From assembly GCA_038893495.1 (NCBI GenBank), contig JAWARJ010000001.1, positions 310,001 to 374,000 of the forward strand: DNA of 64,000 bases, in the 5' to 3' direction. The notes under the pieces are model-generated. The model saw only the letters and a list, made by a program, of their open reading frames with translations. It made no database searches and was not told the origin of the DNA. Position 1 is the stretch's first letter, and each line of letters starts with the position of its first letter. The stretch is from Thermoproteus sp. (GTDB taxonomy: Archaea > Thermoproteota > Thermoprotei > Thermoproteales > Thermoproteaceae). Position numbers and translations under genes: made by a program. Of the stretch, positions 4,472-36,171 are shown piece by piece.

Positions 4472-4813
4472 ATGGGCGGCAAGAAGAGGCCAACTTTAAG
4501 CCAGCTGGCCAAAAAAGCCGAGAAGGCGCAACAACAGCAACAACAAGCTCAAGCTAAGGGCAAGAAGAAAGAGGAGGGCGCGGCTAAAAAGGCCGGCGCG
4601 CAGTCGGCCTTCGACAAGTTGGTCGAGGCGCTCTCTAAAGAGATACAATCGGTCCAAGCCATCACGGCTTACGACGTGGCGAGCAAATACGGGGTCAAGA
4701 TGACCATGGCCATAAAGGCGTTGCGCTCCCTAAAGGAGAAGGGAGACCTAGTGTTGGTCTCCAAGGGCCATCGGACCGAGATCTACGTCCCAGCGCGGCG
4801 GGCGGCCAGCTAG
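4472..4813 (+). CDS. rps25e: Small ribosomal subunit protein eS25
   Basis: A 113-residue protein of the archaeal/eukaryotic ribosomal protein S25e family. The first 45 residues are a low-complexity basic tail rich in Lys, Gln and Ala (GGKKRPTLSQLAKKAEKAQQ...), and the remainder is a winged-helix fold (ITAYDVASKYGVKMTMAIKALRSLKEKGDLVLVSKGHRTEIY), as expected for eS25. The 3' end overlaps the convergent gene at 4810 by four bases. Confidence 0.9.
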   Translation: MGGKKRPTLSQLAKKAEKAQQQQQQAQAKGKKKEEGAAKKAGAQSAFDKLVEALSKEIQSVQAITAYDVASKYGVKMTMAIKALRSLKEKGDLVLVSKGHRTEIYVPARRAAS

Positions 4814-5520
4814 AGCTTAGTCTCCCTTTTTACGTCTATCCTCTTCTTTAGGTTCACCACTCCCAACTCGTGTAGCTCAACTATCTCATATCCCCTCAAG
4901 ACGTTAAGGGCCCTCTTAATCAAATCGGGATCGGCTTTGGTCGACCTCTTGATATCTTCCAGAAATCTCAAGATGCCCACGCTGGGATAGCTGGACAGAT
5001 AGGACAGCATGGCTTCTAGAACCCTACGGGTTTCGGCCTGGCTTATGCCTAGAGCCTCCGCAGTCCTCTCGACAAGCTTCGAGAAGTCGAGGTCTTCAAG
5101 CCGCGCCTCACCTCTCGGCCCTTCTTGTTTTTCCTCTCGCCGTTCTGACCCCCTAGGCGCTTCTCTAGGCTCCTGTTTCTTTTTGGCCTCTTTCTGCGGG
5201 ACTACCTCCGAGGGGGGCGCGGAGGCCTCTACGGCAGGCGCGCTGGCCTTTTTGGCCGGCTCTACGGCCGGCTTCTTGGGCCTTTCTTGAGGAGCCTTCT
5301 GGGGGCGTCCGCCTTTGGCGATATCCAATAGGCTCAGCTGGCCCTTCGCGGTCCCCTTTTTGCTCTCAATTCTGGCGGCTCCTGAGTATAGCTTGAGCCT
5401 AGCCTGCCCTATAATTACCTCGGGGCCGTCGGCCTCGCAACCCTGTTTGGCGCAGAGTATAGAGGCTCCCAGGACGCCTAAAAGCTCACTGTTCTTTAAG
5501 TCCGCTTTCTTGCTCAACAT
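4810..5520 (-). CDS. Uncharacterised protein with low-complexity linker and C-terminal winged-helix-like region
   Basis: A 236-residue protein in three parts. Residues 1-75 are a small globular region with GASILCAKQGCEADGPEVIIGQ. Residues 75-145 are a Pro/Ala/Lys/Glu-rich linker, probably disordered. Residues 145-236 are helical and end in a winged-helix-like wing (LIKRALNVLRGYEIVELHELGVVNLKKRIDV). The ATG at 5518-5520 lies inside the preceding winged-helix gene (35 nt overlap), and a possible TATA (ggaaaaatagcc) is centred about 22 nt upstream. It could be a transcription- or chromatin-associated protein; no family is recognised. Confidence 0.65.
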   Translation of the reverse strand: MLSKKADLKNSELLGVLGASILCAKQGCEADGPEVIIGQARLKLYSGAARIESKKGTAKGQLSLLDIAKGGRPQKAPQERPKKPAVEPAKKASAPAVEASAPPSEVVPQKEAKKKQEPREAPRGSERREEKQEGPRGEARLEDLDFSKLVERTAEALGISQAETRRVLEAMLSYLSSYPSVGILRFLEDIKRSTKADPDLIKRALNVLRGYEIVELHELGVVNLKKRIDVKRETKL

Positions 5521-34142: not shown

Positions 34143-35237
34143 TTATGGGCCCATTCTATATACACGTATTTTTCTTTTGCCTAAAGTCCTGTATGTAGAC
34201 GAGACGAGACCTCTTGTCGATAACGAGGCCAGGGCTTTATACACGCCGCGAAGAGTCGGCCTTCTGCCCAGGGCGTTCCATATCTCGTATGCCGTCATCT
34301 CTCTGCCTTTTAGGAGCTCTAATATCTGCGCCTGTAGTCCCCCGAGGCTTTTGGCCCTCCTCAAATAGGGCCTCCTGACGCCAGTGCCAGTTATGACGGC
34401 CACGGCGCCCTTCTCAGAGGAGGCAGCCACATAGGCCATGGCCGAAAGCGGCTTAGCGTATACCCCCCGCCTTGCCAGCTCCACGGCCGCCCTGACGGCC
34501 TCCTCAGCCTCTACCTCCACAAGCTTGGCCCCCCTTTCGGCGAGCCATAGGGCTATCTTTGAGGGCGGGGCCCCCTTATGTATGGCTAGAAGCAGTTGGG
34601 GCGGAGAGGCGAAGCCCCACTCCTCGAGGTCCCTAAAGCCCTCGTAGACTGCCAGAGCCAATATGCCGCTTTCCAGCGGGAAGGCTACTGCCTCAAGGCG
34701 TTTTGAGCCTTCGTGGAGCTCGTAGGCGAGCGTCTTAATGCCGGCGAGGAAGTAGGGCTCTCCATATTCCAAGTCCGGCCTTGGCGCCTTGCCGAAACGG
34801 ATATCGATCGACGGGAGCAACGCCAACGACAAGAAATCTGTATAGGCCGCCGCCGCGGGGTCTATATATATATCCACTGCCACGCCCTTTGCGGATAGAT
34901 ATGTAGCGATGGAGATGGCGAAGTCCTCTTGGAAGTCTAAAACCGCCCTGTCCCCATTATATGTAGACGCCAATACGGCAGATCCCCTATCCATAATCGA
35001 GCCGGTTGGGTTCTTTGACTCGTCCTTGACAAGGACCCCGCCGACCTTCTTGAGGGGCGTCAGCCCCTCGCCCAACGAGATGCCCCTCTTAACGCCGAGC
35101 GCCGATGAGTAGCGCCATATATTCGGCTCGGACTTGTCGACCTCTAGCTTGCGGGGAGGCTCTGGTATCAATGGGAAGCCGCATTTGGGGCACCTCTTCT
35201 CCAAGCCCCTATAGCCGCACCTAGGGCAACGAAACAT
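34143..35237 (-). CDS. Threonine synthase-like protein lacking the PLP lysine, fused to a winged helix
   Basis: A 364-residue protein in three parts. Residues 1-25 are a zinc ribbon (CPRCGYRGLEKRCPKCG). Residues 40-285 follow the threonine synthase fold: GEGLTPLKKVGGVLVKDESK, NPTGSIMDRG and a late ITGTGVRRP. In true enzymes the second motif is NPTGSFKDRG, whose Lys binds pyridoxal phosphate; here that codon is ATG (Met). Residues 290-364 look like a winged helix (GLQAQILELLKGREMTAYEI, then TLRGVYKALASLSTRGLVSS). It probably is not a PLP enzyme of the usual kind and could be a regulator. It overlaps the epimerase gene by 17 nt. Confidence 0.75.
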   Translation of the reverse strand: MFRCPRCGYRGLEKRCPKCGFPLIPEPPRKLEVDKSEPNIWRYSSALGVKRGISLGEGLTPLKKVGGVLVKDESKNPTGSIMDRGSAVLASTYNGDRAVLDFQEDFAISIATYLSAKGVAVDIYIDPAAAAYTDFLSLALLPSIDIRFGKAPRPDLEYGEPYFLAGIKTLAYELHEGSKRLEAVAFPLESGILALAVYEGFRDLEEWGFASPPQLLLAIHKGAPPSKIALWLAERGAKLVEVEAEEAVRAAVELARRGVYAKPLSAMAYVAASSEKGAVAVITGTGVRRPYLRRAKSLGGLQAQILELLKGREMTAYEIWNALGRRPTLRGVYKALASLSTRGLVSSTYRTLGKRKIRVYRMGP

Positions 35238-36171
35238 CTAGCTCCTTTACCAACTCGGCGGCGGCGCGCTCCACCGTCTCTTTAGACCCAAGGCGGGGTG
35301 TCCAGCCGGCGTACTCCTCTATCTTCTTTATGCTCAACAGCATGACCTTGACGTCGCCGGGCCAGCCCCGCCCGTCGGGGGTAGCGGGCTTGAAGACAAA
35401 TTTGGGCGAGAGGCCCATGGCTCTGGCCACTGCGGCCGCTATGTCTCTCACCGACGCCGCATCTCTATTGCCTATATTTAACGCCAGAAACGGCTTGTCG
35501 TCGCCCATGAACTTACGCCAAGCCGCCAGGGTGGCCTCTACGGCCTCTGAGACGTGTAGATACGATTTGGTCTGAGTTCCGTCGCCCAATATTTCAAGCA
35601 CCTCCGGACTTCTCTTCAGCTTCATTATGAAGTCGTAGATAGCGCCGTGTCTAAGCCTGGGTCCCACTATATTTGCGTACCTCAACGCGAGGCACCTCAC
35701 GCCGTAGAGCCTGCCGTAAGTCCCGCAGAGCGTCTCGCCGGCCGCCTTAGCGGCTCCGTAGACCGATATGGGGGCGATCGGCGCGTCTTCAGGCGTCGGG
35801 AGCTGGGCGGCGTCGCCGTATACGGTAGAGGACGAGGCGAACACCACCACGCCGACTCCCCGCCTCCTGGCCCACTCCAACACGTTGAAGGTCGCCACTA
35901 CGTTCTCGTCGAAATGTACTTTGGGGTCGGTGGTGCTGACTCTGACCTCAGGGTTTGCGGCCAGATGAAAGACCGCATCGGCCTTCTCGAGCCCTTCGCC
36001 CCACGTCGGGTCCTTTAAGTCTCTGACCGCCAAGCGAGCTTGCGGATTTATATGTTCCCTCCTGCCCGTGGATAGGTTATCTACGACCACCACCTCATGT
36101 CCCATCTCGACCAGCCTATCGACAAGGTGAGAACCTATAAAGCCCGCGCCCCCCGTGACTATCACCTTCAT
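35221..36171 (-). CDS. NAD-dependent sugar-nucleotide epimerase/dehydratase (UDP-glucose 4-epimerase type)
   Basis: A 316-residue extended short-chain dehydrogenase. The NAD motif GGAGFIGSH is at residues 7-15, the catalytic Ser/Thr in FASSSTVYGD, and the Y-x-x-x-K pair in SVYGAAKAAGE. The length and DLKDPTWGEGLEKADAVFHLAA pattern fit archaeal UDP-glucose or UDP-GlcNAc 4-epimerases. Located beside a polysaccharide flippase, it likely makes nucleotide sugars for surface glycans or protein N-glycosylation. A TATA-like aaaaataaatag is centred about 26 nt upstream of the ATG. Confidence 0.9.
   Translation of the reverse strand: MKVIVTGGAGFIGSHLVDRLVEMGHEVVVVDNLSTGRREHINPQARLAVRDLKDPTWGEGLEKADAVFHLAANPEVRVSTTDPKVHFDENVVATFNVLEWARRRGVGVVVFASSSTVYGDAAQLPTPEDAPIAPISVYGAAKAAGETLCGTYGRLYGVRCLALRYANIVGPRLRHGAIYDFIMKLKRSPEVLEILGDGTQTKSYLHVSEAVEATLAAWRKFMGDDKPFLALNIGNRDAASVRDIAAAVARAMGLSPKFVFKPATPDGRGWPGDVKVMLLSIKKIEEYAGWTPRLGSKETVERAAAELVKELDVSLP

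Follow-up and report, generated by a model that had tools for sequence, protein, structure and literature searches.

A lysine-less relative of threonine synthase with a winged helix as a probable regulator of vitamin B6 supply in Thermoproteus and related archaea

The window analyzed here, a 64-kb stretch of a Thermoproteus genome, encodes a protein which very probably regulates vitamin B6 (PLP) supply at the level of transcription and would be an archaeal counterpart of bacterial PdxR. It belongs to a conserved family of archaeal proteins in which a threonine synthase-like domain without the PLP lysine is fused to a winged helix. Comparative data make it rather likely that this family is phylum-wide and serves as the archaeal vitamin B6 switch, with one branch annotated as threonine synthase, and that its regulons reveal uncharacterized B6 genes, namely those for a permease of amino-acid type, for a pyridoxamine-pyruvate-transaminase-like enzyme, and for an ECF S component (PF07155) paired with an AIRS/HypE/ThiL-like kinase. 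A first, sequence-only reading had described the protein as a former enzyme turned regulator, a view which is now strongly supported by the comparative evidence from lysine loss, winged helix, operator, targets and linkage.

The regulator gene lies at positions 34143–35237, as the sequence-only reading had placed it. It is read from the minus strand (35237..34143) and encodes 364 aa; the other window features described below are on the minus strand as well. Translation of the plus strand meets many stops. Translation, a Pfam PALP match (7.2e-21) and the orthologs define three parts. The N-terminal zinc ribbon (residues 4–20, 35178–35228; CPRC..CPKC), absent from the earlier description, has the form CxxC-CxxC, and its Cys4, Cys7, Cys16 and Cys19 are invariant in 19 orthologs. 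It is followed by a fold-type-II PLP-enzyme (threonine-synthase-like) domain, the proposed ligand sensor (residues ~40–288, 34374–35120; pLDDT 90), and by a C-terminal winged helix-turn-helix (residues 300–362, 34152–34340). In the AlphaFold model, built with 19 orthologs (pLDDT 90.3, pTM 0.77), the latter consists of helices 300–309, 316–322 and 329–341 and strands 345–352 and 355–362. Foldseek matches of the whole model are headed exclusively by threonine synthases (first 6nmx, E 2.6e-16), and the tail folded alone retrieves PadR regulators and TFE. The winged helix suspected from the letters is thus borne out by its H-H-H-E-E order, a pLDDT of about 90 and these Foldseek matches. PadR regulators provide the nearest fold of this domain; however, the Pfam PadR score is 15.8 against a cut-off of 27 bits and no PadR dimerization part is seen.

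The same domain order recurs in other Thermoproteales, where the sequence-only reading had proposed to look for it: three-part orthologs are found in all six Thermoproteus genomes as well as in Vulcanisaeta, Caldivirga and Thermocladium. Pyrobaculum has no three-part ortholog. Further family members occur in Desulfurococcales, Sulfolobales, Acidilobaceae and Fervidicoccus assemblies. Longer relatives of 443–547 aa with NPTGSFMDR or NPSGSFADR (L307–L315) come from Nitrososphaerales, Caldarchaeum and Methanomethylicota assemblies, and some of them adjoin ECF S and AIRS-like genes. Four Vulcanisaeta assemblies carry frameshifted regulator copies (L020, L024, L025, L028), probably reflecting sequencing errors in drafts. 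One Thermoproteus assembly (G003, locus L099) has a regulator with Ala in place of the lysine and lacks pdxS, the permease and any exact operator, a case that tells against the B6 reading given below. The window-type proteins form a single clade (SH-aLRT 100), and one clade of all lysine-less proteins is not rejected by a tree test (p-AU 0.144). The winged helices of window-type and Arg-type proteins, the latter named for the residue at the lysine position, are homologous (hhalign 98.4%).

Loss of the PLP lysine runs through the entire fused family. Among 82 aligned proteins, lysine is present at this column in 26/26 unfused threonine synthases and absent from 56/56 winged-helix-fused proteins, of which 22 are window-type (Met in 12, Ala in 4, Tyr in 4, Ser in 2), 28 are Arg-type (all Arg) and six are others (Leu in 2, Arg in 1, Thr in 3). 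The ATG codon read at this position in the motif NPTGSIMDRG is confirmed as residue 82 (34992–34994), and since relatives conserve the lysine loss, Met82 is neither chance nor a sequencing error. The neighboring Asp-Arg is retained in all window-type relatives, and the GEGxTP and NPTGS..DR motifs persist in the window protein. A new aldimine-forming lysine nearby, which the sequence-only reading had considered, is not evident from the alignment. The domain has two invariant lysines, K71 and K168, and both are shared with canonical threonine synthases (26/26 and 25/26). As they are equally conserved there, they are not new replacements specific to this family, although either might conceivably reach PLP in the window protein.

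The pocket is also altered elsewhere. The change in the PLP loops noticed earlier is real, but the segment then taken as the phosphate loop, DFQEDFAIS, aligns with the S/T-x-G-N loop, which in established threonine synthase structures contacts the PLP ring and the substrate carboxylate. Here, FQEDFAIS (residues 102–109, 34911–34934) replaces that loop, and its Asn has become Asp (Asp105) in 21/22 window-type proteins. The actual phosphate loop (residues 188–192, 34662–34676) has changed from the GNAGN type of threonine synthases to E-[RS]-G and reads PLESG in the window protein (187–191). By alignment, the Arg-type pocket retains the Asn along with a phosphate loop rich in Gly, so that the window-type pocket is the more degenerate of the two.

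The predicted targets were identified by a class-wide comparison of pdxS upstream regions. A perfect palindrome, TTRAACGTTYAA, lies 32–48 bp before pdxS (PLP synthase) in genomes with the regulator and is present in every readable one of them that has pdxS. It precedes pdxS in ten genomes, nine with a detected regulator, as opposed to 0/17 pdxS-containing genomes of groups without the regulator (Fisher 1.2e-7, for genomes which are not independent). The tenth genome (G033) is an 84% complete assembly, and the site is likewise present without a detected regulator in the 87% complete assembly G031; both cases count against the proposed link. The pdxS promoter of G001 is masked, hence unreadable and outside this count. 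In Thermoproteales, the palindrome ends 32–37 bp before the pdxS start, directly upstream of a TATA-like element, with a nominal 45 bp in G057, where pdxS lies directly downstream of the regulator across a 45-bp gap. In a leaderless archaeal promoter, this is where the BRE lies. Exact TTRAACGTTYAA sites are rare, numbering two in the 2.0-Mb genome of the window and zero in seven Pyrobaculum-side genomes. Some exact sites fall within genes and look fortuitous. The background of the 16-mer pattern with two mismatches is too high for defining regulons. At the regulator's own gene in Thermoproteales no operator was found, and best matches with mostly 3–5 mismatches speak against autoregulation at this promoter.

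In many distant genomes, the regulator, the operator, pdxS and pdxT adjoin one another. The only exact site of G193 precedes a pdxS-pdxT-regulator operon, and the gene order in G238 is regulator-operator-pdxS-pdxT. Thirteen independently fetched loci have pdxST next to the regulator and a pdxS start that can be read; the site was found 41–48 bp upstream in all 13, with no mismatch in 8, at most one in 11 and at most two in 13. Shuffled upstream regions yield a site with at most one mismatch in 0.2% of cases each; a binomial figure for the 13 loci overstates the case because the loci are related to each other.

The second exact site in Thermoproteus precedes an amino-acid-type permease (PF00324), and TTRAACGTTYAA is found before the same permease in Thermoproteus, Vulcanisaeta, Caldivirga and Thermocladium, mostly 32–37 bp from the start. 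T. uzoniensis lacks pdxS, yet the site precedes its permease; G314 also lacks pdxS, and its sole exact site precedes the permease ortholog. Another gene downstream of the site encodes a class-V aminotransferase; among NCBIfam families it matches pyridoxamine-pyruvate transaminase best (6e-78), though below the cut-off of that family. Loci with pyridoxamine-pyruvate-transaminase-like and permease-like genes under the operator were seen in Vulcanisaeta, Thermocladium and Caldivirga (L190:4077-5231 (+), L191, L201). In G055, again without pdxS, the site precedes the gene of an ECF S component (PF07155), with a kinase-like gene of the AIRS family next in line. PF07155 covers the B6-vitamer carriers PdxU and HmpT (PMC9997740). 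An AIRS/HypE/ThiL-like gene repeatedly adjoins the ECF S component (L119:3190-4215 (-), L185:2385-3389 (-), L310, L314), and in the inferred B6 regulon this gene is a candidate pyridoxal kinase.

Sequence, predicted fold and comparative genomics support three elements of the mechanism: the regulator derives from threonine synthase, has lost the Schiff-base lysine and carries a winged helix; the TTRAACGTTYAA palindrome adjoins the TATA/BRE region of pdxS(-pdxT) and the permease and, in some genomes, that of the transaminase-like gene or the ECF S component; and operator and regulator co-occur and are often physically linked. In the proposed mechanism, the winged helices of a dimer would bind the palindrome. 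With no lysine left to trap the ligand, the old PLP pocket would bind PLP (or a different B6 vitamer) reversibly, and the bound state would signal B6 sufficiency and turn off B6 synthesis and uptake. Repression, with PLP acting as the co-repressor, is the most likely sign of control. Activation by the ligand-free protein, by analogy with bacterial PdxR, appears nearly as likely given the position of the site immediately before TATA, and an operator abutting TATA/BRE would suit either blocking or recruitment of TFB/TBP. Bacterial PdxR activates pdxST without PLP (PMC5320631), and activation is therefore conceivable for the archaeal regulator as well.

It is plausible that the ligand is phosphorylated, PLP being the best candidate. 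For the Arg-type proteins, which retain the Asn and the Gly-rich phosphate loop, non-covalent PLP binding is easy to imagine, while the Asn to Asp change and the E-[RS]-G loop make the ligand less certain in the window type, where PLP itself may not bind given the more degenerate pocket. The protein could regulate B6 genes while sensing an amino acid, the aldimine of PLP with an amino acid, or pyridoxal or pyridoxamine. This alternative, improbable but not negligible, would accommodate a window-type pocket devoid of lysine, Asn and phosphate loop, as well as a predicted target permease from an amino-acid transporter family. However, every assignable target concerns B6 supply, and the ligand sensed by bacterial PdxR is PLP (PMC5320631).

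The likeness to the MocR-type PdxR, which the preferred reading of a B6 regulator invokes, lies in the fusion of a PLP-enzyme fold to a winged helix and, by comparative genomics only, in a predicted operator at PLP biosynthesis and transport genes. PdxR joins a GntR-like winged helix to a fold-type-I aminotransferase-like domain, and its regulon includes pdxST and B6 transport (PMC5320631). In contrast, the archaeal sensor is of fold type II (threonine synthase) and lacks the lysine, and its winged helix is C-terminal and PadR-like; a Pfam scan of the window protein gave no aminotransferase or GntR match, and its architecture is not that of a MocR. An enzyme domain with an HTH is also the design of ThiR. 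Control of their own vitamin by such a combination likens the archaeal regulators ThiR and RbkR, the latter called a bifunctional regulator and enzyme (PMC8305020), to the window protein, but their enzyme folds are unrelated, their vitamins are B1 and B2, respectively, rather than B6, and no ThiN or riboflavin-kinase domain was matched by Pfam in the window protein. MocR factors have been reported absent from archaea (PMC5320631), and B6 transporters have been described as largely unidentified in prokaryotes (PMC9997740). If the proposed function is true, the family fills the archaeal gap left by absent MocR-type B6 regulators, points at concrete B6 transporter candidates, and shows that transcription factors arose from PLP enzymes twice independently, here from fold type II and not fold type I. 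A search of the open-licence literature found no description of a B6 regulator that is archaeal or built on threonine synthase.

In the Arg-type sister family, the regulator lies directly upstream of an ECF S component (PF07155) in 18/20 loci, most of which carry a different palindrome, TAGTATAGTTRYAACTATACTA or TTAAAGTWTWAACTTTAA, before this component. pdxS is absent from 31/36 genomes with an Arg-type regulator. The Arg-type motif precedes pdxS in four of the five genomes that have it (21–27 bits vs. ≤13 in 16 controls), and in the fifth, G238, pdxS has the window-type operator beside a window-type regulator. Immediately upstream of the Arg-type regulator/ECF genes, Staphylothermus carries genes for an Lrp/AsnC regulator and, divergently, a glutamine synthetase (L115:3120-4463 (-), 4532-5041 (+)).

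One group of Arg-type genes (family f24) is divergent from canonical thrC at 58–86 bp (L124, L127, L079), an arrangement which may be a duplication remnant or indicate cross-regulation. Together with the origin of the domain from threonine synthase, it could favor a regulator of threonine/homoserine metabolism whose domain still has O-phosphohomoserine, threonine or an amino acid as ligand and whose targets are thrC and its relatives. This reading is nevertheless quite improbable: the common f24 palindrome is found before the downstream ECF S gene and not clearly in the thrC gap, and the sites of window-type genomes are at pdxS, permease, transaminase and ECF genes. In window-type genomes, the lack of TTRAACGTTYAA at thrC speaks against threonine-pathway regulation.

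It is even less credible that the protein is an active or altered PLP enzyme merely carrying a DNA-binding domain, despite the persistence of the GEGxTP and NPTGS..DR motifs and the fact that NCBIfam calls the Arg-type relatives threonine synthase. Like ThrC, the window protein has a fold-type-II PALP domain and several common motifs, but it differs in Met82, the altered S/T-x-G-N and GNAGN loops and the added winged helix, and judging by these sequence features it is not a functional threonine synthase. Further evidence against an enzyme comes from the several different replacements of the lysine, retained in 0/56 fused proteins, and from the rest of the window genome, which encodes two intact threonine synthases with the SFKDRG motif, one of them sharing an operon with asd and aspartokinase, so that threonine synthesis has no need of the regulator protein. 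The name of the curated family (NF004170/PRK05638; Staphylothermus and relatives) is itself a probable misannotation of the Arg type, as all members examined here are unable to form the usual internal aldimine. The S. marinus Arg-type protein scores 699 bits against a cut-off of 421, and L065 (1492-2802 +) and its relatives L066–L094 also lie above the cut-off although they have Arg in place of the PLP lysine and end in a winged helix. The window protein shares with this family the domain order, the lost lysine (Arg there), a homologous winged helix and a B6-type context; it differs in its score (115.6 bits vs. the cut-off of 421), its more degenerate pocket and its different operator.

Control of surface sugar genes, as proposed by the sequence-only reading, is the least credible option and, for the local epimerase/flippase cluster, is contradicted by the absence of any exact TTRAACGTTYAA operator from the 64-kb window (the best match upstream of epimerase or flippase has four mismatches, and no regulatory link to the epimerase emerged), by the loss of the epimerase neighbor in T. 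tenax, G003 and all other genera, and by sites at B6-type genes elsewhere. What favors it is the 17-nt overlap (35221–35237) with the upstream NAD-dependent epimerase ORF (35221–36171, same strand), which is exact, and the synteny in part of the genus, where regulator and epimerase are probably co-transcribed.
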